This document shows positions 79 through 60,952 of a DNA stretch of 64,000 nt, one piece after another. The position numbers were made by a program, and so were the translations under genes. The DNA lies in assembly GCA_021568835.1 (NCBI GenBank), contig JAKGSH010000010.1:2976001-3040000 (forward strand), in the 5' to 3' direction. Source of the DNA: Streptomyces sp. Tue 6430 (lineage in GTDB: Bacteria; Actinomycetota; Actinomycetes; Streptomycetales; Streptomycetaceae). Numbering within the stretch: position 1 is the stretch's first letter; each line of letters begins with the position of its first letter. The notes under the pieces are model-generated. The model was given only the letters and a program-made list of their open reading frames with translations, was not told where the DNA came from and did no database searches.

Positions 79-1314
79 TTAGGGCCGGTCGTTCCCGCCT
101 ACTGACCAGATGAGCCCGTCAACCTGTCGGGCGACCTCGCTTCGAACAGAGTCGACCATGTGCTGATACCGCGCCGCCATGGCCGTGGTGGACCAGCCCA
201 TCAGCCCCATGACGGCCCGCTCCGAGACTCCGAGGATCAGCAGGACGGTAGCGGCGGTGTGTCGGGCGTCGTGCAGCCGGCCGTCTCGGACTTTCGCGTC
301 ATCAAGCAATTGCTTCCAGTCGTCGTAGTCCGTCCGGGGTGATGTGCCTCGCCCGGTCGGCGTAGCGAAGAGCCATCCTTCGTCCGTCCAGTCGGCGCCG
401 GCCGCCGCGCGTTCGGCTTGTTGCTTGACCTGATGAGCGCGCAGCAGGTCTACGAGCTGTGAGGGCAGCCCCACGGCTCGCCGTCCGGCGCGAGACTTCG
501 TATCGGCCGTCTCCGGGTTGGTTCGCTGACGCTGCGGGCAGTACCCGGCCTTCCTGCCACAGGTGTCCCCGCAGCCGTGGGCGTAGCGCGGCCGGCGACG
601 GCTCCGCCGGACCATCAGGACACCCCGGTCAAGGTCGACGTCCGCCCACTTGAGGCCGAGCGCCTCGCCCTGTCGGAGTCCGAGGGCGAGCGCGACGGCC
701 CACCGAGCGGAGTTCCGGCGGTCGTCGGCCGCCCGCAGCAGCCGCTGTACCTCTTCCACGGTGTACGGCTCGATCTCCTCTTCGCTGAGGCGAGGTGCCT
801 TGGCGAGTTGGACGGGGTTTCGGGCGAGGTGACCGCGCCGTACGGCCTCGTTCAGCGCGGTACGGAAGGTGCGGTGAATCTGGTGAATCGTGCCCGCCTT
901 ACGGCCGTCGGCCACCATGCGCCCGTAGAAGTTCTCGATGTGCTCCGGCTTGAGCTTGTCCAGCCGGTGGGCACCGAGGGCGGGGATCAGGTGCTTTCGG
1001 ACGGCGACGCCATACCCGACCATCGTGTTCTCGTTGACGGCCAGCGGGGCGATGTTCTCGACCCAGTGGGTCAGCCACGTCTTGACCGTCCAGGGGCGGC
1101 CCGCCTTCCGAATGGTCTTCGCGTCGCGCTCCCGCTCCAACTCGCGGACGGCGGCGGTCACCTCGGCGCGGGTCTTCCGCTCGACGTGGCGGCGGTCCGG
1201 CTTGCCGTCGTCGCGGATGCCGACGGTGACGCGGCCGTGCCACTTGCCGTCGCTGCCCTGGTAGATGGAACTGCGGCCGTTGGGCTGTCGGGTGCGCTTC
1301 TCGTCTTCCGCCAC
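79..1314 (-). CDS. int: Tyrosine recombinase/integrase of AICE-1
   Basis: A 411-residue site-specific recombinase that should catalyse integration and excision at the tRNA-Ser site whose 3' fragment lies at 11997-12051. The N-terminal part (about 20-70) resembles an arm-binding domain, about 75-160 a SAM-like core-binding domain, and the rest the catalytic domain. Candidate catalytic residues are R214 (ALGLRQGEAL), H348 and R351 (LHDARH), W374 and nucleophile Y383 (AARYQH). A cysteine-containing insertion sits at about 247-260 (HGCGDTCGRKAGYC), seen in many actinobacterial AICE and phage integrases and possibly metal-binding. It is the last gene of the minus-strand rep-xis-int block, next to the missing left attachment site. 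It differs clearly from the integrase of AICE-2. Confidence 0.93.
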   Translation of the reverse strand: MAEDEKRTRQPNGRSSIYQGSDGKWHGRVTVGIRDDGKPDRRHVERKTRAEVTAAVRELERERDAKTIRKAGRPWTVKTWLTHWVENIAPLAVNENTMVGYGVAVRKHLIPALGAHRLDKLKPEHIENFYGRMVADGRKAGTIHQIHRTFRTALNEAVRRGHLARNPVQLAKAPRLSEEEIEPYTVEEVQRLLRAADDRRNSARWAVALALGLRQGEALGLKWADVDLDRGVLMVRRSRRRPRYAHGCGDTCGRKAGYCPQRQRTNPETADTKSRAGRRAVGLPSQLVDLLRAHQVKQQAERAAAGADWTDEGWLFATPTGRGTSPRTDYDDWKQLLDDAKVRDGRLHDARHTAATVLLILGVSERAVMGLMGWSTTAMAARYQHMVDSVRSEVARQVDGLIWSVGGNDRP

Positions 1315-1400: not shown

Positions 1401-1634
1401 TCAGGCCACCTGCTGCTCAGCGCGGCGGCGGGCGAGGTAGGCGGCCGGCGCGTCGGCGGGAACGCGCCGGAGTCCCCCGACCATCAGAGACTCCAGCTCA
1501 CCGGTACGGATGAGCGCGAAGCAGGTGGTCCGACCGATCCGGAGGCAATGGGCGGCCTCTTCGACGGTCAGGAGAATGGGGGCCGGTCCACTGGTCTTAG
1601 CGAGTCGGACGGAGTCCAAGCTGGCGATGCTCAT
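1401..1634 (-). CDS. xis: Excisionase/helix-turn-helix protein of AICE-1
   Basis: A 77-residue protein with a MerR-like (HTH_17) fold: LLTVEEAAHCLRIGRTTCF gives the two helices, and the GGLRRVPADAPAAYL segment forms the typical wing. Such proteins bind attP arms and direct the integrase to excision. It lies between the replication ATPase gene and int, as the Xis gene of AICE-2 does. The upstream gene in its uncorrected frame overlaps it by about 38 bases, and with the suspected frameshift repaired the overlap disappears. Confidence 0.85.
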   Translation of the reverse strand: MSIASLDSVRLAKTSGPAPILLTVEEAAHCLRIGRTTCFALIRTGELESLMVGGLRRVPADAPAAYLARRRAEQQVA

Positions 1635-2976
1635 GCGGGCTCTCCTGTAGGCCAGTCCTTCGGGGGTCCCTCTGAGGGCCGCTACTTCCGCTACTTCCGC
1701 TACCTCGCAGGTCAGGGGCCTGATCGAGGTAGCGGGAAGGGGTAGCGGTAGCGGATGGGTAGCGTTGGGGTAGCGGCTCGCGGTGGCATTTGCCGCTACC
1801 CCGTTGTTGCTGGTCAGACCGTGTTTTCGGTGCCAGGTAGCGGAGGTAGCGGACTTTCCGGGGGTGGGGGCAGTAGCGCTGCCAGGCGTCGTAGAGATCG
1901 CTGGCGTAATAGCCCTTGAGGACGCCCCCGCCGGTCTTGATGTTGCGGCTGGTGACCGGGTCGCCGTCGACGGTGACGTATTCGCTGAGCATCTTGGACA
2001 GCCGGCGGGAGTCGAGCGGCTTGCCGTTGAAGTCGGCCCACGGGGCGTCGTCGAGAGCGTTGAGCCGGTCGAGAACGGCGACGGTGGGGAGTCGGTCGAT
2101 GCCGATCATGACGTGGTCGCGCAGGTCGGTGAGCAGCCGGATACCAATGCTGCCTTTGTCGTTGGCTTGGGAGGCTTTGACCATCACGCTGCATGCCTCG
2201 CGGGCCCGTTCGGGCCAGTCGCCCCCGGCGGCGTCCGCGACGGCGAGCAGGGGTTCCCACACGTCCGCGGGCCGGTCGGCCACTCCGTCGGGCATCTCGG
2301 GAAAGGCGTCGGTGACCTGCTCCTGCACGCTTTCGGCCCACTTGGCGAGCCGGTCCCGGAGCTGATTGCCCTCCCGTACATGGATGCGGGTGCGGAACTG
2401 CTCGACCTTCTCGTTGCGGGCCCGGCGGCGCATGCGGACGATGACGGACCGGGTCATGATCGTGTCCGGGAGGGAGCCGAGTCCAGCGACGGCAACGGCG
2501 CAGTACGAGGGGAAGCCCTGTACCTGCTGGTTGGAGCCGTCTCCGACGCATCGGTACATCACCCGTCCGCGGGTGTGGCCGGCGTTGATGAACCCGCGGA
2601 GTTGCTCGTTGTCTCCGGCTTTCGGTCCGAAAATGGTGTCGATCTCGTCGAAGAGGATCGTCGGTCGGCCGCCGTCGATTCCGGAGACGGACCGGAACAG
2701 GGCGGAAGCGGAGGCGTCGACCGCAGCCATGGAGCGCGGTACGAGGGTTTCGACCACTTCCAGGGCCCGGGACTTCCCCGACCCCGGTTCGGGCGAGAGG
2801 AAGGCCAAGCGCGGGGTGGAGTCGAACGCGTCGAGCAGGTGGGCGTGCGCGTCCCACAGGGTGACGGCGACGAACGCGGCTTCGGTGGGGAAGACGTTGA
2901 AGCGGCGGTGAAAGTGCTCCACCTCGTCCAGCAGCGCGGCGCCGTCGATGGGCGCCGCGGGTGTGGTGTCGGTCAT
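1597..2976 (-). CDS. DUF3631-domain replication ATPase/helicase (3' end apparently frameshifted)
   Basis: A P-loop ATPase of the DUF3631 family, which accompanies primase-polymerases in AICEs and probably acts as the replicative helicase or initiator. Walker A is SPEPGSGKSRALE and Walker B is PTILFDEIDTIFG. The ATG at 2976 is chosen because it overlaps the upstream stop (ATGA). The protein matches its AICE-2 counterpart closely until YCP near base 1870. There AICE-1 has one C fewer in a C-run, which sends the frame into the iteron region and gives a low-complexity tail ending at 1597. Restoring one base would end it at 1814 with PLPPLPGTENTV, like AICE-2. This is most likely a sequencing error, but a real C-terminal change cannot be excluded. 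Confidence 0.85.
   Translation of the reverse strand: MTDTTPAAPIDGAALLDEVEHFHRRFNVFPTEAAFVAVTLWDAHAHLLDAFDSTPRLAFLSPEPGSGKSRALEVVETLVPRSMAAVDASASALFRSVSGIDGGRPTILFDEIDTIFGPKAGDNEQLRGFINAGHTRGRVMYRCVGDGSNQQVQGFPSYCAVAVAGLGSLPDTIMTRSVIVRMRRRARNEKVEQFRTRIHVREGNQLRDRLAKWAESVQEQVTDAFPEMPDGVADRPADVWEPLLAVADAAGGDWPERAREACSVMVKASQANDKGSIGIRLLTDLRDHVMIGIDRLPTVAVLDRLNALDDAPWADFNGKPLDSRRLSKMLSEYVTVDGDPVTSRNIKTGGGVLKGYYASDLYDAWQRYCPHPRKVRYLRYLAPKTRSDQQQRGSGKCHREPLPQRYPSATATPSRYLDQAPDLRGSGSSGSSGPQRDPRRTGLQESPHEHRQLGLRPTR
1679..1852. repeat. GTAGCGG iteron array with central dyad, candidate replication origin of AICE-1
   Basis: Ten exact GTAGCGG/CCGCTAC heptamers plus one GTAGCGT lie within 174 bp. Three are in direct array at 1679-1703, the rest are in both orientations, and an inverted repeat with 11-bp arms (GGGGTAGCGGC / GCCGCTACCCC) lies near 1774-1803. 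The array covers the 3' end of the replication ATPase gene and the gap before xis. AICE-2 has the same arrangement with ten copies at 60914-61076. Iterons beside a replication gene suggest initiator binding. A role in Xis binding or promoter control is possible. Confidence 0.65.
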
Positions 2977-3382
2977 GCTGCGTTCCTGCTTTCGGTGTCC
3001 GGGGCGGGCATCCCGTGCAGGCGTGTTTGTGGGCGGCGTAGGCGGTGACCAGGGCGGCCACGGCGTCCTGGCCGCGGGCGGTGCGGGTTTCGCCGCAGGG
3101 GCAGGCGTAGGCCGCGGTGGGGGTGGCGCCGGGGCGCTTGGACCAGCGGGCACCGTCGTTGGGGTGGCGGTAGACCGGCGGGGCGTAGATGCGGATGCCG
3201 GGCCGGTCCGGCGTCGGGTCGTCGGCCGGGCGCGGGTCAGGGCGAAGAGCAGTTACGACGCCCTTGCGGGCGGCGCCTTGCGGCTCGCCCACGGTCGGCC
3301 CGGGCGCGGCCGGTCGTGCGGCATGCGGACCGGTGGCGGGGGTGGGTTGGCCTTCCAAGCGGGGGCGGGTCAGGGTGCTCAT
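2973..3382 (-). CDS. Small conserved AICE protein between prim-pol and DUF3631 genes (apparent frameshift)
   Basis: Homologue of the 116-residue AICE-2 protein at 59460-59810. They share an N-terminal MS-TRPRL segment, a GEP-GAARKGV segment and a cysteine-containing stretch (YACPCGETRTARG), which suggests a small metal-binding domain. The start at 3382 overlaps the primase-polymerase stop (ATGA). As given, the frame runs past the expected stop. One extra C in the run near 2999-3006 would give an end of PPPDTESRNAA and a TGA overlapping the next ATG, exactly as in AICE-2. No function is known. The coupled position suggests an accessory replication role. Confidence 0.65.
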
Positions 3383-4281
3383 GCCGTCTCCCGGGGACGG
3401 GCTTTGCGGACGGAGCTGTCCAGGGCGCTGCGGATCGTGGCGCGGCACTCCGCCGCGGTGAGTCCCCGGGCCTCTCCTGCCGCTTGGAAGGCGTCCTCTG
3501 CCACATGCCGGGGGAGGTCGCCCCATGCGACGAACCGGCCCACCTTGAAGGCGCAGCGGTTCAGGGTGACGTTGCGCAACCCGTCCGGCGCGCCGACGAC
3601 CGCGGCGCATTCGGCCTCCAGCGCGGCCAGTGCCGCGCGGCTCCCGTCGACCGCGGGCAGCCTGAGCGGCACCGCGGGCGCAACGGGTGCTGGCCGCAGC
3701 AGCGCCAGCAGCCACCCCGGCAGCGACACTGCGGCGGTCCCGCCCTCAACCTCGTACCGGCCGCCGGGAACGATGCTGCCAGCGGCGACGACGTAGCCAC
3801 CGGCCGCACGGGTGTCCACGGAAGCGGCCACGGTGCCCGCTGTGTTGGACAGCCGGAAGCCGGCCGGTGCGGTGAAGTACAGGTGCGTTCCACCGCTCGC
3901 GGTCCGAGTGCGGAAGGTGTCGGGGACGGCGTGTCCGGCGCGCTCGCAGAGCGCTCCAAAGGTCGTCGCGCCGTCAGGCGCGTCCGCACTGCCTTTGTGC
4001 TCTGACGTGTCCAGGTCCACCACGATCAGCCCGGAGGGGCCGGTGGCAATCCCGACGTTGAACGGCGCACGCGACCAGGCGGCTTGGATGCGGTCCGGGT
4101 CGGTTGTGGCCCGCTGCTCCCACTTCACGTGCCCGCCGGCGCACGGCCCGGTGTGCGGGCACTTGGCCTCTCCGTGCAGGGCAGGGCGCTTGGTGCTGGG
4201 ACGGAGGGGGAAGACGTGCCAGCCGCGGGCGGCGGCGTCCAGCGCTGCGCGCAGCAGCGAGGATCGGGGGTCATGGGTCAT
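3379..4281 (-). CDS. Bifunctional DNA primase/polymerase (RepPP-type) of AICE-1
   Basis: A 300-residue archaeo-eukaryotic primase-type protein, the replication protein class called RepPP in AICEs. It should prime and copy the excised element. Visible signatures are the N-terminal AARGWHVFPLRPSTKRP block, the metal-binding VVDLDT motif, the SGGTHLYF histidine motif and RAAGGYVVAAGS. The second half holds a helical region (FVAWGDLPRHVAEDAF) conserved in AICE-2. It heads the coupled prim-pol / small protein / DUF3631 block and follows a hairpin shared with AICE-2. The ATG at 4281 has a GGAG about 11 bases upstream. Confidence 0.9.
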   Translation of the reverse strand: MTHDPRSSLLRAALDAAARGWHVFPLRPSTKRPALHGEAKCPHTGPCAGGHVKWEQRATTDPDRIQAAWSRAPFNVGIATGPSGLIVVDLDTSEHKGSADAPDGATTFGALCERAGHAVPDTFRTRTASGGTHLYFTAPAGFRLSNTAGTVAASVDTRAAGGYVVAAGSIVPGGRYEVEGGTAAVSLPGWLLALLRPAPVAPAVPLRLPAVDGSRAALAALEAECAAVVGAPDGLRNVTLNRCAFKVGRFVAWGDLPRHVAEDAFQAAGEARGLTAAECRATIRSALDSSVRKARPRETA

Positions 4282-9687: not shown

Positions 9688-9950
9688 CACGCCACCACCG
9701 GAGCGTCGGTACCGCCCTGGTTGGCCAGGTCCCGGCGGGCGGCCAGCGCCCGGCGGCGGGCCCGGCGGATACGGCGGGCGTCCACCTCGCTCGGCGTGCG
9801 GTCAAGGACCATGATCTGCGCGTCGATCAGGTCGACGTCCGCGAGGATCACGGGCATCTCTCGCTCGATCGCGTCCAGCTCCGCGGCCGTCGGCTCCATG
9901 AAGTCGGCGAACGCGGTAACAGCGTCCTGAACAGTCACGATGTGGTTCAT
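9687..9950 (-). CDS. DUF6284-like small protein, first gene of the AICE-1 transfer operon
   Basis: An 87-residue helical protein starting with MN-IVTVQDAVTAFADFM and containing a basic RRIRRARRRALAARRDL segment near the end. The AICE-2 protein at 53312-53575 is about 75% identical. It is the promoter-proximal gene of this minus-strand operon. It is preceded by a 34-nt leader identical to that of AICE-2 and by a 12/6/12 hairpin. The strongly conserved leader suggests regulated translation or processing. Function unknown. Confidence 0.75.
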   Translation of the reverse strand: MNHIVTVQDAVTAFADFMEPTAAELDAIEREMPVILADVDLIDAQIMVLDRTPSEVDARRIRRARRRALAARRDLANQGGTDAPVVA

Positions 9951-9987
9951 GGGTCGTGGTCTCCCTAGCAGGTGAAACGGCCCGAAT

Positions 9988-10017
9988 GCGGCTCCCGGGG
10001 TGCCACCCGGGAGCCGC
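9988..10017 (-). promoter_or_regulatory. 12-bp/6-nt/12-bp leader hairpin of AICE-1
   Basis: Perfect inverted repeat with arms 9988-9999 and 10006-10017 and a 6-nt loop, ending 37 nt before the DUF6284-like start. The nucleotides between hairpin and start are identical to AICE-2 over at least 34 nt, including GGGCCGTTTCACCTGCTAGG. The AICE-2 hairpin (53243-53272) has the same 12/6/12 geometry but an unrelated stem sequence. That points to selection for structure. Confidence 0.65.
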
Positions 10018-10034
10018 TCGCCGTTGAAGTCGGA

Positions 10035-10092
10035 GCATCCGGCTCCCCTCAGCGCTGCTCGTACGAGACGAGCAGCGGAGGCAACCGGCCGC
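10035..10092 (-). promoter_or_regulatory. Conserved structured leader element of AICE-1 (with covariation)
   Basis: 58 bp almost identical to 52315-52372 of AICE-2. The core is a hairpin with 9-bp arms and a 5-nt CTCGT loop. In AICE-1 the arms read GCTGCTCGT/ACGAGCAGC, in AICE-2 GCTGCACGT/ACGTGCAGC. The single arm difference is compensated on the other arm, so pairing is kept. It is followed in both by GCTGAGGGGAGCCGGAT. It lies in the 5' region of the transfer operon, between the regulator operators and the first genes. Confidence 0.65.
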
Positions 10093-10378: not shown

Positions 10379-10401
10379 AGTGACGACAAGGAGTGGGCGA
10401 C

Positions 10402-11160
10402 ATGGCAGGCCAGACCGACAATCGGGCGCCGTACGCGAGGATTGCCGCCCACTACGCAGAGCTGATTTCGTCTGGTCAGCTACAGCCAGGAACCCTCTTG
10501 CCGAGCATCAAGAACCTCTCGGAAGAGTGGAAGGTGAGCACAGCCACCGCCGAAAAGGCCCTGCGCAAGCTGCGCAACGAGGGGCTTGTCCGTGGCATCC
10601 ACGGCATCGGTACGGAAGTGCTGGACCAGCCGGCCCCGATGTCTTCCGGCGCCCAGCGGCAGGACCGGGGAGTCCGCACCGGATCAAGCTGGGGTACGGG
10701 TGAGCGATCCGACTCGCACCAGGCGGCCGTGGTGCCCGCGCCCGACGAAGTGGCGCAGGCGTTGGACATTCGGCCCGGCTCCGATGTGGTGCGCCGTAGT
10801 CGTGTGTACCGGGACCGGCACGGCATCGTCGCCCACAGCACGTCATGGATTCCCGCTCGGTACGGGAAGTTGATCCCCCAACTGGCGGAGAGCGAGCGAC
10901 TGACGGGGGGAACGTCACTCCAGCTCATCGCCCAGGCCACAGGTCACCCGATCAGCCACCGCATCGATACCGCCTCAGCCCGTCTACTGACGGCGGAGGA
11001 CGCGCGACTGTTGGAGCTGGACCCCGACAACCCGCCGACGGATCCAGTAGTCGTGATGACAGCCAAGTTTGTGGACAGCGAGGGCAACATCGTGGAGTAC
11101 GGCGTGGACCTCGGCGGCCCGGGCCGGACATGGCGCACAGAATCGGAGGTGTCCCCGTGA
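10402..11160 (+). CDS. korA: GntR-family (KorA/KorSA-type) regulator of AICE-1
   Basis: A 252-residue repressor. The N-terminal winged helix-turn-helix (about 12-75: YARIAAHYAELISSGQLQPG, LSEEWKVSTATAEKALRKL) is of the GntR type, and the C-terminal UTRA-like ligand domain begins near residue 110. In pSAM2-like elements this regulator silences replication and transfer functions. The ATG at 10402 is preferred over GTG 10393 because AAGGAG lies 8 bases upstream. It is transcribed away from the transfer operon, with operator repeats just upstream. It overlaps the kinase gene by GTGA. Confidence 0.85.
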   Translation: MAGQTDNRAPYARIAAHYAELISSGQLQPGTLLPSIKNLSEEWKVSTATAEKALRKLRNEGLVRGIHGIGTEVLDQPAPMSSGAQRQDRGVRTGSSWGTGERSDSHQAAVVPAPDEVAQALDIRPGSDVVRRSRVYRDRHGIVAHSTSWIPARYGKLIPQLAESERLTGGTSLQLIAQATGHPISHRIDTASARLLTAEDARLLELDPDNPPTDPVVVMTAKFVDSEGNIVEYGVDLGGPGRTWRTESEVSP

Positions 11161-53129: not shown

Positions 53130-53178
53130 GCCCCGGCATCCAGCCGTGACGGGCGCCGGATCGAATCCGGCCCGGGGC
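53130..53178 (+). other. Folded intergenic element 2 (GCCCCGG...CCGGGGC)
   Basis: Outer stem 53130-53136 with 53172-53178, identical to element 1, and an inner 5-bp arm GCCGG/CCGGC with a 7-nt ATCGAAT loop. Shares the GCCGGATCGRATCCGGCCCGG core with element 1 as a direct repeat. Function unknown. Confidence 0.5.
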
Positions 53179-53242
53179 ACCGGCCGCCACCGTGCGGCCC
53201 ACCGCACCCATCGGGTGCGGCTCTTCCCCTCTCAAACGGCGC

Positions 53243-53272
53243 GCACCCCCGGAGCGGCTACTCCGGGGGTGC
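53243..53272 (+). promoter_or_regulatory. 12-bp/6-nt/12-bp leader hairpin of AICE-2
   Basis: Perfect inverted repeat GCACCCCCGGAG/CTCCGGGGGTGC with loop CGGCTA, ending 39 bases before the DUF6284-like start. Same geometry as the AICE-1 hairpin at 9988-10017 with a different stem. It is followed by the same 34-nt leader sequence. Confidence 0.65.
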
Positions 53273-53311
53273 TGTTCGGGCCGTTTCACCTGCTAGGGAG
53301 ACCACGACCCA

Positions 53312-53575
53312 ATGAAGAACATCGTCACCGTTCAGGACGCTGTTACCGCGTTCGCCGACTTCATGGAGCCGACGGCCGCCGAATTGGACGCCATCGAGCA
53401 GGAGCTCCCGCTGATCGCGGCGGAGGTCGACCTCCTCGACGCGCAGATCATCACGTTGGACCGCACGCCGACCGAGGTGGACGCCCGCCGCATCCGCCGG
53501 GCCCGCCACCGGGTCCTCGCCGCCCGCCGGGACCTGGTCAACCGCACCGCCGGCGTGACGGGGGGTGCGGCGTGA
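53312..53575 (+). CDS. DUF6284-like small protein of AICE-2
   Basis: 87 residues, highly similar to the AICE-1 protein at 9687-9950 (shared IVTVQDAVTAFADFMEPTAA and DARRIRRAR). Helical with a basic C-terminal segment. The AGGGAG ribosome-binding site lies in a leader that is identical between the elements. It overlaps the DUF2637 gene by GTGA, so the two are coupled. Confidence 0.78.
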   Translation: MKNIVTVQDAVTAFADFMEPTAAELDAIEQELPLIAAEVDLLDAQIITLDRTPTEVDARRIRRARHRVLAARRDLVNRTAGVTGGAA

Positions 53576-59463: not shown

Positions 59464-59810
59464 GCGCCCCGACCCGCCCCCGCCTGAAGAGCATCACCAC
59501 CACCCCGACCGGCCCGCCCGCCGCTCCACAGCCTGTGGACCCGGCGGCCGTGGGCGAGCCGAAAGGCGCCGCCCGCAAGGGCGTCCCCACAATCCCTGAC
59601 CCGCACCGGCCCGACGGCCGTCGCCCCGTGGCGTGGCTGCACATCACGGCGCCGCGCGACGCCACCCCCACCGCCACCTCACGGTGCCTGTGCGGGTGGG
59701 ACCGCAGCGCCGTCGGTCACGCCCGCGTCCTCGCCCTGATCGAGGCGCACGCCGCGCACCGAGACGTCTGCCTGCTCCGCAACCCGCAGGAAGGAAGGGC
59801 CGCCGCATGA
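59460..59810 (+). CDS. Small conserved AICE protein between prim-pol and DUF3631 genes
   Basis: 116 residues, intact counterpart of the frameshifted AICE-1 gene at 2973-3382. The N-terminus is Pro/Thr-rich. The middle holds GEPKGAARKGVPTIPDP and a SRCLCGWDRSAVGHARVLAL segment with cysteines. It overlaps both neighbours by four bases (ATGA twice). Function unknown, probably part of the replication complex. Confidence 0.75.
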   Translation: MSAPTRPRLKSITTTPTGPPAAPQPVDPAAVGEPKGAARKGVPTIPDPHRPDGRRPVAWLHITAPRDATPTATSRCLCGWDRSAVGHARVLALIEAHAAHRDVCLLRNPQEGRAAA

Positions 59811-60952
59811 CCCGCACCATCGACGGGGCAGCGCTGCTGGACGAGGTGGAAGCCTTCCACCGCCGCTTCAACGTCTTCCCCACCGACGCCGCGTTCGTCG
59901 CCGTCGCCCTGTGGGACGCGCACGCCCACCTGCTCGACTGCTTCGACTCCACCCCCCGCATCGCCTTCCTGTCCCCCGAACCGGGGTCGGGCAAGACGAG
60001 GGCGCTGGAGATCGTGGAAACCCTCGTGCCGCAGCCCATGACCGCCGTCAACGCCTCCGCCGCCGCCCTGTTCCGCTCCGTCTCCGGGCCCGACGGCAAA
60101 CCCACGATCCTGTTCGACGAGATCGATACCGTCTTCGGCCCCAAGGCCGGGGACAACGAGGAACTACGCGGCTTTCTGAACGCCGGGCACCGCCGCACCG
60201 GGGTCACCTACCGGTGCATCGGTGACGGCGGCAACCAGACCGTGCAGGCGTTCCCCTCGTACTGCGCGGTCGCGGTCGCCGGACTCGGCTCGCTGCCGGA
60301 CACGATCCTGACCCGCTCCGTCATCATCCGCATGCGCCGCCGGGCCCGCAACGAAAAGGTCGAACCCTTCCGGGCCCGCATCCACGAGGCGGAAGGCCAC
60401 AAGCTCCGTGACCGGCTCGCCGCATGGGCGGAACAGGTGCGCGACTCTGTCATGGGGGCGTGGCCGGACATGCCCGAGGGGGTCGCCGACCGGCCGGCGG
60501 ACGTGTGGGAACCCCTGCTCGCCGTCGCCGACGCCGCCGGCGGCGACTGGCCCGGCCGGGCCCGCGAAGCATGCCTGACCCTGGTCAAGGCCTCCCGCGC
60601 CAACGACAAAGGCAGCATCGGGGTGCGGCTGCTGACCGACCTGCGTGACCACGTCATGGTGGGCATCGACCGTCTGCCCACCGTCGCCATCCTCGACCGG
60701 CTCAACGCCATGGACGACGCCCCCTGGGCCGACCTGAACGGCAAGCCGCTCGACAACCGGCGCCTGTCCAAGATGCTCGCCGAGTACATGACGGCCGACA
60801 ACGAGCCGATCGCCTCCCGCAACATCAAGGCCGCCGGCAGCGTCCTGAAGGGCTATTACGCCGCCGATCTCTGGGACGCGTGGGCCCGCTACTGCCCCCC
60901 TCCTCCGGAAAGTCCGCTACCTCCGCTACCCGGCACCGAAAACGCCATCTGA
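59807..60952 (+). CDS. DUF3631-domain replication ATPase/helicase of AICE-2
   Basis: 381 residues. Walker A is SPEPGSGKTRALE, Walker B is PTILFDEIDTVFG, and a sensor region includes SLPDTILTRSVIIRMRRRAR. The C-terminus (LSKMLAEYMTADNEPIASRN, VLKGYYAADLWDAW) resembles the DNA-binding domain of DUF3631 proteins. It ends with PLPPLPGTENAI inside the first iterons. It is intact and serves as the reference for the frameshift in the AICE-1 copy. ATG 59807 overlaps the previous stop. Confidence 0.9.
   Translation: MTRTIDGAALLDEVEAFHRRFNVFPTDAAFVAVALWDAHAHLLDCFDSTPRIAFLSPEPGSGKTRALEIVETLVPQPMTAVNASAAALFRSVSGPDGKPTILFDEIDTVFGPKAGDNEELRGFLNAGHRRTGVTYRCIGDGGNQTVQAFPSYCAVAVAGLGSLPDTILTRSVIIRMRRRARNEKVEPFRARIHEAEGHKLRDRLAAWAEQVRDSVMGAWPDMPEGVADRPADVWEPLLAVADAAGGDWPGRAREACLTLVKASRANDKGSIGVRLLTDLRDHVMVGIDRLPTVAILDRLNAMDDAPWADLNGKPLDNRRLSKMLAEYMTADNEPIASRNIKAAGSVLKGYYAADLWDAWARYCPPPPESPLPPLPGTENAI

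Follow-up and report, generated by a model that had tools for sequence, protein, structure and literature searches.

A small strand-biased hairpin site with covarying arms and inverted loops heads an operon of Streptomyces AICEs

A single small, strand-biased hairpin site heads the operon that begins with a DUF6284 gene in two AICEs of Streptomyces sp. Tue 6430, both lying in the 64,000-nucleotide stretch of DNA analyzed here (hereafter, the window), and a hairpin of this kind stands at the same place in related loci. This structural statement is the best-supported one; what the site does is something that we infer. The two arms of the hairpin change jointly and its loop occurs in either orientation, suggesting that it is the DNA that folds at this site.

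Results

Two hairpins of the same geometry precede the DUF6284 genes of the window

The sequence-only reading from which this work started had described, in each AICE, a perfect hairpin with 12-bp arms and a 6-nt loop, followed by 34 or more identical nucleotides up to the start of a DUF6284-like gene, with a distance to the start codon differing by two bases. All of these points were borne out (Table 1). Read on the minus strand, the AICE-1 hairpin is GCGGCTCCCGGG-TGGCAC-CCCGGGAGCCGC, and the AICE-2 hairpin, on the plus strand, is GCACCCCCGGAG-CGGCTA-CTCCGGGGGTGC, each with 12 perfect pairs. Directly 3′ of the hairpins, both elements share a leader of 36 nt (TTCGGG...GACCC), the distance to the ATG is 37 nt in AICE-1 and 39 nt in AICE-2, and both genes belong to PF19801. 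The further claim that the stems share no sequence did not hold, the 5′ arms agreeing at 7 of 12 positions and both stems belonging to a family with a CCCCGG/CCCGGG core. The earlier observation was therefore only partly confirmed. It had also overlooked an outer stem, AACGGC/GCCGTT, that encloses both AICE hairpins, as well as invariant T-ending codons, of a rare kind, at positions 6-11 of the gene. The fold predicted for the AICE-1 and AICE-2 leaders is strong. Since perfect 12-bp hairpins occur at 14 places in the window, the interest of these two lies in their position and conservation and not in the hairpin itself.

Table 1. Coordinates of the hairpin sites and associated genes in the window
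Feature	Position	Strand	Remarks
AICE-1 inner hairpin	9988..10017	-	arms 12 bp, loop 6 nt
AICE-2 inner hairpin	53243..53272	+	arms 12 bp, loop 6 nt
AICE-1 outer stem, 5′ arm AACGGC	10020..10025	-	sequence reading; outer-stem covariation
AICE-1 outer stem, 3′ arm GCCGTT	9976..9981	-	sequence reading; outer-stem covariation
AICE-2 outer stem, 5′ arm AACGGC	53235..53240	+	sequence reading; outer-stem covariation
AICE-2 outer stem, 3′ arm GCCGTT	53280..53285	+	sequence reading; outer-stem covariation
AICE-1 conserved leader and ribosome-binding site	9951..9986	-	36 nt identical to AICE-2, by alignment
AICE-2 conserved leader and ribosome-binding site	53275..53311	+	36 nt identical to AICE-1, plus one A
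DUF6284 gene, AICE-1, 87 aa	9687..9950	-	PF19801, E 1.1e-41; first gene of the operon
DUF6284 gene, AICE-2, 87 aa	53312..53575	+	PF19801, E 1e-42
AICE-1 DUF6284 codons 6-12, ACTGTTCAGGACGCTGTTACC	9915..9935	-	constrained as nucleotide sequence
AICE-2 DUF6284 codons 6-12	53327..53347	+	same constrained stretch; codon 6 is ACC, an exception
Prim-Pol gene (PF09250), AICE-1	3379..4281	-	proposed hairpin partner
DUF3631 (RepAM-type) gene, AICE-1	1597..3153	-	
GntR/UTRA regulator gene beside the AICE-1 element	10393..11160	+	divergent
DUF3631 (RepAM-type) gene, AICE-2	59633..60952	+	
Prim-Pol profile match, AICE-2	begins ~58579	+	

The hairpin accompanies the DUF6284 gene at a near-fixed distance

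PF19801 was detected by profile search in 185 of 392 Streptomyces genomes, about half of those searched, and across the class in 25 of 394 genomes, 22 of which scored above the family cut-off. Loci were taken from the better-scoring matches listed, together with the 80 highest-scoring of 325 matches in named GTDB contigs, which are from Streptomyces apart from one Kitasatospora, and the resulting set consequently leans to typical members of the family. Duplicates with identical 350 nt were removed and not counted, and a further 232 profile hits were discarded because they had no start codon at profile position 1-3, most of those inspected being the opposite strand of the same gene; this left 203 genes. 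Outside these sets, the DUF6284 protein was found in two plasmid records and one viral contig and in none of the phage records.

A hairpin was found ahead of all 203 kept genes. By automatic search, its arms measured 12 bp in 157 genes, 13 bp in 32, and 8-18 bp in the remaining 14, with a loop of 6 nt in 173 genes, 4 nt in 27, and 5 or 7 nt in 3. Once the closing pair of the 4-nt loops was opened, the stem ended 35-41 nt from the start codon in every case, so that the fixed geometry seen in two elements extends to 203 genes with 49 distinct stem sequences. Chance hairpins were rejected on the same grounds, that is, presence before 203 of 203 kept genes at a fixed distance. As an incidental control, 37 hits in other reading frames included no perfect stem of at least 11 bp and only four stems of 11-14 bp with one mismatch.

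A covariance model was built on 70 of the sequences, which fit it by construction. It gave one strong hit (at least 55 bits) in each of 79 loci that had been fetched for their DUF6284 gene, and no second strong hit within these 79 loci (1.56 Mb). The window contains two strong hits, and these are the only ones in the whole genome; they score 71.8 and 68.9 bits, and the best place apart from them reaches 34.4 bits. Weak second matches of 25-28 bits were seen in four loci (L202:9560-9611, L241:9843-9903, L194:3333-3370, and L211:4526-4578). At E 0.001, the model matched 80 of 150 Streptomyces genomes, some of the weak matches being due to chance. Two of the 150 genomes, G031 and G042, carry DUF6284 without such a match, and laxer filters revealed their hairpins at 25.6 and 37 bits. 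As a check on bias, all DUF6284 matches were collected from 12 genomes, including these two, that had been selected because hits in them were weak, in excess, or absent. The hairpin was present on the strand of the gene in 21 of 24 new loci (lowest score 25.6 bits, L279), or in 23 of 26 matches when two loci already in the set (L007 and L101) are included, and the three loci that lack it (L283, L294, and L295) are gene fragments, in which the first 37 or more profile positions are not covered by the match. At one further locus (L297, G020:C29), a 73.3-bit hairpin lies 37 nt before a DUF6284 match that covers profile positions 45-65 only; the first gene there is perhaps truncated or fused. A loose sequence-pattern search matched 392 of 392 genomes and enters no count.

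Rfam recognized three tRNAs and nothing else in the window, its matches to the leaders falling far below the gathering scores. In the open-access literature searched, DUF6284 was not found by name, and we found no mention of a hairpin at AICE clt or conjugative transfer loci of Streptomyces.

The arms of the hairpin covary

In the 70-sequence alignment, 94.5% of the cells were paired compared with 83.5% in shuffles, a measure favored by the derivation of the structure from the same 70 sequences. The covariation score reached 0.267 compared with 0.083 in shuffles, and none of 500 shuffles attained it. Double changes occurred in 11 of 18 pairs, with 9 of 12 in the inner stem and 2 of 6 in the outer stem, and the covariation signal disappeared when the partner columns were slid by 1-3 positions. 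Among the five measures, the count of further pair types was the one that showed no excess (18 versus 18.3 in shuffles). The outer stem is absent from a few loci (L157 and L158).

The sequence-only reading had proposed that shape is conserved over sequence and had suggested a covariation test on aligned leaders. The compensatory changes in the 70-sequence alignment, with a score above that of all 500 shuffles, uphold that proposal, and the outcomes it had named as contrary, either a missing hairpin or variable arms without covariation, did not occur. The hairpin is a covarying structured element, kept by selection or by repair.

Conserved nucleotides extend into the first codons

The conserved run continues into the gene. 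Codons 6, 7, 10, and 11 encode their usual residue in 79, 80, 76, and 99% of the 203 genes, respectively, and, given that residue, they are written as ACT in 93%, GTT in 99%, GCT in 93%, and GTT in 99% of cases. By comparison, codons ending in T or A make up 3-10% in the rest of the DUF6284 gene, and codon 4 strictly avoids a final T (199 ATC versus 1 ATT). The RRQRL gene of the same operons, used as a control in 66 loci, had no column constrained to T in this manner among 79 conserved columns, and the Prim-Pol gene (36 loci) had 3 of 194, none of them in the first 97; a third control gene was left out with two sequences only. Judged by these codon counts, the early codons are a fixed nucleotide sequence and not the product of a general codon preference. 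At the other end of the gene, GGT and GCA, ending in T and A, are over-represented near the stop codon (columns 92 and 94), perhaps from overlap with the start of the next gene.

AlphaFold models DUF6284 as two long helices (residues 22-47 and 55-80), with the least certainty in the first 20 and the last seven residues. Foldseek returned no match to this model in the PDB below E 0.001, and the idea that DUF6284 has a known RNA- or DNA-binding fold is not supported.

The hairpin and leader also precede another protein family of about 100 aa in seven loci (L244, L245, L246, L247, L249, L250, and L251). Its motif is MKxIVAGxEAVTA..ELFTG.., its early codons also end in T, and the three of its seven proteins that were scanned had no Pfam match at cut-off. 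A profile comparison aligned this alternative family with DUF6284 over columns 1-16 only (probability 25), and the last residues of the two families are also similar. Conversely, no hairpin of this kind was found in eight loci before distant DUF6284-like proteins of another family, in which the DUF6284 match begins past the N-terminal stretch. The hairpin thus tracks the gene start more than the DUF6284 domain. This association is limited by four loci (L253, L256, L282, and L289) in which the hairpin is kept despite a changed N-terminus.

Loops occur in both orientations

The 200 genes with a 6-nt loop contain 45 distinct loops, 26 of which have their reverse complement in the set, forming 13 pairs; column shuffles gave 3.8 such loops on average and at most 12 in 5000 trials. 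No plain reversal and no plain complement was present among the 45. In the closest pair of loci (L128 and L131), the stem is the same, the 35-nt leader is identical, and the loops read CTCTAA and TTAGAG, with 95% identity in the 60 nt upstream and 88% identity between the genes. For the remaining 12 loop pairs, the closest genes are 79-89% identical. An inverted loop with the stem retained, the mark of a template-switch hairpin, is thus found here.

In the same DNA, no inverted loop pair was detected in 49 other hairpin families (344 hairpins and 194 distinct loops), 39 of which have at least two loops, compared with 17 pairs for the main DUF6284 family when the same script also counted other loop lengths. 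Counted pairwise, 224 DUF6284 pairs were inverted and 12750 otherwise changed; the figures for other hairpins were 2 and 1610, and both of the 2 are diverged DUF6284 elements. The other hairpins had less time or freedom to change, as they are more often identical (2924 pairs). AICE-1-type leaders also contain a second hairpin upstream of the element, CGCTGCTCGT-loop-ACGAGCAGCG (10053-10077 in the window), whose family comprises 73 copies and 19 loops with no inverted pair.

A loop can be inverted on a retained stem only if the arms come together in DNA or if one of them serves as the template for the other. In the accessible sections of PMC8794818, compensatory changes and loop inversions in rRNA genes are attributed to template switching.

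Every long locus carries a Prim-Pol gene or a divergent relative

From the integrase (79-1314, minus strand), the genes of AICE-1 follow in the order DUF3631, Prim-Pol, TraB, TraA, RRQRL, DUF6303, and DUF6284. In AICE-2, which runs along the plus strand, DUF6284 is followed by a Prim-Pol match, DUF3631, and an integrase-like gene that falls slightly short of the Pfam cut-off; the upstream side differs from that of AICE-1. A third Prim-Pol profile match lies at ~45064 (plus strand), outside AICE-1 and apart from the AICE-2 operon.

All 62 loci of at least 18 kb encode either Prim-Pol, as defined by a profile grown from one plasmid copy (31 loci), or a divergent relative (31 loci). Of the Prim-Pol loci, 26 have DUF3631, and the same number of divergent-primase loci have a VapE-like partner, VapE itself being a weak match (E 0.2). 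The two primase types are related (hhalign probability 94). The divergent relative, for example L162:16105-16944 and its counterparts in 30 other loci, is missed by Pfam PF09250; six genomes of the divergent type do have Pfam Prim-Pol hits, but in the case of L162, which comes from a single-contig record, no such hit falls by coordinates in the range of the AICE. From these gene contents, the divergent primase, usually with a VapE-like gene, may be an alternative replication module of these AICEs. RepSA was not found downstream in any of the 62 loci by a search that was seeded with one protein (L271, from this genome) and that a remote RepSA could escape. Counts of TraB and TraA from iterated searches were unreliable (7 loci each) and were not used.

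The accessible sections of PMC3218068 describe AICEs with Prim-Pol and DUF3631 (RepAM) modules and state that AICEs carry an origin; these sections give no mapped replication origin for Prim-Pol AICEs, and the paper makes no use of the word hairpin. As for a Prim-Pol stem-loop origin, a primase-polymerase or its relative is encoded by the element in 62 of 62 loci. Stem type, however, does not follow the type of replication protein as such an origin would have it: there is no link between the two, and the same stems occur in 27 Prim-Pol and 24 divergent-type loci.

Identical hairpins were found in 3 of 39 pairs of elements residing in one genome and in 1.7% of 1914 pairs between genomes. A role as an incompatibility tag is unsupported, since co-resident elements may share identical hairpins.

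Mismatches are mostly of the kind that the bottom strand tolerates

Imperfect pairs in the 49 distinct stems are strongly asymmetric. Read on the sense strand, 21 are A.C or C.A and 3 are G.T or T.G; most of them thus still allow a G.T pair on the bottom strand. Removing by hand two misregistered stems with at least three bad pairs left 20 versus 2 (binomial p 0.0001, in a test that treats the 49 stems as independent although not all are independent events). The bias runs against the method, because the stem-finding score favored G.T. The loci of the 12-genome check, counted by hand, added four A.C or C.A pairs (L288, L289, L293, and L296) and one T.G pair (L278). For comparison, hairpins with a T-tail in the same 2.5 Mb, read on the strand of the tail, had 21 G.T and 14 A.C pairs, a ratio that differs from the 3:21 of the leader stems (Fisher p 0.0004), and hairpins without a T-tail had 170 G.T and 175 A.C. 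A general mutation bias does not explain the excess, because synonymous differences in the DUF6284 genes lean the opposite way (C to T 6.2%, G to A 2.8%). The antisense fold was the more stable one in 29 of 32 imperfect hairpins, as it was in the RNAalifold consensus of 100 of the 202 distinct leaders (-36.5 kcal/mol for antisense versus -25.2 kcal/mol for sense). The bias follows base type and not arm. Selection on bottom-strand pairing and strand-biased template-switch repair on the top strand are both possible sources of the asymmetry, and both are at odds with a constraint on pairing in a sense RNA.

An antisense RNA explains the same asymmetry as bottom-strand DNA and is the main rival of a reading in terms of DNA. 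Such a transcript would start within the first codons, cover the ribosome-binding site, end in the hairpin, and hold the transfer operon down. It would account for the wobble bias of the bottom strand, the better antisense consensus fold, the fixed distance to the start codon, and the nucleotide constraint on codons 6-11; moreover, both families of first genes mostly retain GTAAC and CGATG, with the same spacing, on the antisense strand. No recognizable promoter was established, however; the N-terminal codons that the two families share also dictate this spacing, and the antisense tail past the hairpin has no U-tract. Neither does the hairpin act as an incompatibility tag, and the inversion of loops here but not in 49 other families is left unaccounted for. 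We regard an antisense RNA as doubtful, although it deserves to be taken seriously.

A hairpin in the 5′ untranslated region of the sense transcript, acting as an attenuator, a U-poor terminator, or an element of stability or translation, would suit a position 35-41 nt from the start codon of all 203 genes, irrespective of the upstream DNA, as well as the strong predicted fold and a weak T-richness past the hairpin, which reaches up to five T in the alternative-gene group. It is contradicted by the mismatches, since an RNA folding on the sense strand would tolerate G.U and avoid A.C, and the ratio observed is the opposite of that in terminator-like hairpins; of these possibilities, an attenuator on the sense strand fits the mismatch data least well. 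The tail argues in the same direction. Its typical sequence, TGTTCGGG, has three T in eight positions, three being the count in 118 of 203 leaders and four in 9 of 203, and T-runs of 4-5 follow the hairpin in a few alternative-gene loci. A simple intrinsic terminator is ruled out by this poor U-tract and the opposite mismatch bias, and no Rfam family matches the leader. A sense-strand element of any of these kinds therefore seems rather unlikely. The sequence-only reading had offered either an RNA element or a DNA cruciform, and it stands in part: the sense RNA is disfavored by the A.C bias and the poor U-tract, and a DNA fold is favored by the inverted loops.

The upstream DNA varies

Upstream of the 203 genes, the DNA forms one cluster of 139 regions, many small ones, and 23 unique regions, and in 19 cases a gene that is probably co-directional ends no more than 250 nt from the hairpin. 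In 46 of the 62 loci of at least 18 kb, the opposite strand carries a GntR-type gene no farther than 3.5 kb upstream. This arrangement, also seen in AICE-1, would be in keeping with a double-stranded operator, in which a 30-bp palindrome is bound by a dimeric regulator and the half-sites shift with its specificity. Palindromes are common at the heads of regulated operons, and the loop, being a spacer, would be free in sequence. An operator nevertheless leaves unexplained a strand bias that follows base type and not arm, a shape that stays constant over many upstream contexts, and the inverted loops, and we hold it to be quite improbable. Less probable still is a mutational relic, in which template switching alone, of the type reported for rRNA genes in the accessible sections of PMC8794818, makes and maintains a functionless palindrome and flips its loop: a fixed distance in 203 of 203 genes, a near-fixed length, and conserved flanks before two different genes call for selection, and other hairpin families in the same DNA lack inversions.

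Upstream of the AICE-2 hairpin, we also observed a tRNA-like minihelix (53130-53179, plus strand), with a 7-bp acceptor-like stem GCCCCGG/CCGGGGC and a T-arm-like segment GCCGG ATCGAAT CCGGC. It has no D or anticodon arm and ends ~130 nt before the DUF6284 start. Similar sequences with paired changes in the T-arm occur in 8 of the 203 upstream regions, and neither ARAGORN nor Rfam calls the minihelix.

Discussion

We tentatively favor, at less than even confidence, a cis-acting DNA site on the bottom strand at which replication or transfer of Prim-Pol AICEs starts. This reading is drawn from the strand bias, from the freedom of stem and loop sequence within a fixed shape and fixed flanks, from the loop inversions, and from the presence of Prim-Pol or its relative in 62 of 62 long loci. 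A conserved site of about 110 nt, made of the outer stem, the inner 12-bp hairpin, and a conserved run to codon 12, would head the transfer and replication operon. Its hairpin would form in single-stranded bottom-strand (template) DNA and could serve as a structural start or priming site when the element, once excised, replicates or is made ready for transfer. Recognition would depend on shape and conserved flanks and not on stem sequence, and the recognizing factor would probably be the Prim-Pol machinery present in every long locus. By template switching at the folded hairpin, the arms would be repaired and the loop flipped.

Several observations weigh against the bottom-strand DNA site. The near-fixed distance to the start codon is what an mRNA leader would show, and there is no need for a replication site to adjoin a gene start. 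Stem type does not follow replication type, and the link with Prim-Pol may reflect operon history only. The wobble asymmetry could likewise come from strand-biased template switching and not from selection on the bottom strand. The more specific proposition is that Prim-Pol AICEs start or prime their replication at a single-stranded DNA hairpin of fixed shape and free sequence, which template switching repeatedly flips and re-copies, and that the fixed part of this site is written into the first codons of any small gene placed behind it. This is possible but distinctly less secure than the general one.

With DUF6284 in so many Streptomyces genomes, a short site that lends itself to deletion, flipping, or re-pairing would offer a handle on the replication start of AICEs or on the restraint of their transfer operon. 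The hairpin is also a clear natural case of loop inversion in place, which allows template switching to be measured in bacteria. It carries a warning as well, namely, that covariation and perfect stems alone are no proof of an RNA.

Comparison with known systems

A close counterpart is the stem-loop origin of pRN1, a plasmid with a primase-polymerase, in which, according to the accessible sections of PMC4234260, a stem-loop with an intact stem is needed in cis for replication. As in pRN1, the AICE hairpin belongs to a replicon with a primase-polymerase of its own, and it keeps its shape although its sequence is poorly conserved. The stem-loop described for pRN1 in those sections, in contrast, is ~100 nt long and follows the replication gene on its downstream side, whereas the inner hairpin of the AICEs measures 30 nt and stands at the operon head, several genes before Prim-Pol.

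With the template-switch hairpins of rRNA genes, the AICE hairpins share compensatory arm changes and inverted loops on retained stems. The rRNA case, as given in the accessible sections of PMC8794818, comprises 69 loop inversions over large trees, mostly of four nucleotides and mostly partly reverse-complementary, whereas the AICE hairpins provide 13 distinct pairs of six-nucleotide loops, all from a single small element of mobile DNA. The transfer locus clt of AICEs, bound by Tra or TraB (PMC3218068), offers a parallel in that the hairpin is likewise proposed to be a cis-acting DNA site of these elements. It differs in that the accessible sections of PMC3218068 tie clt to Tra or TraB binding and mention no hairpin.

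Like the intrinsic terminators of Streptomyces, the AICE hairpin has a GC-rich 12-bp stem and a short loop and lies between genes. Unlike them, it has a poor U-tract and the opposite mismatch bias, keeps a fixed place before a start codon, and is surrounded by a conserved outer stem and flanks. Plasmids controlled by antisense RNA carry hairpins with a strong stem and variable loops before their first replication or transfer gene, and the AICE hairpin resembles these in its strong stem-loop ahead of the first gene of an operon and in its variable loops. It differs from them in being identical in some co-resident copies, and its antisense transcript is hypothetical. Stem-loop origins of Prim-Pol replicons, template-switch hairpins, and antisense control hairpins are all already known, and the AICE hairpin would be a variation on one of them.
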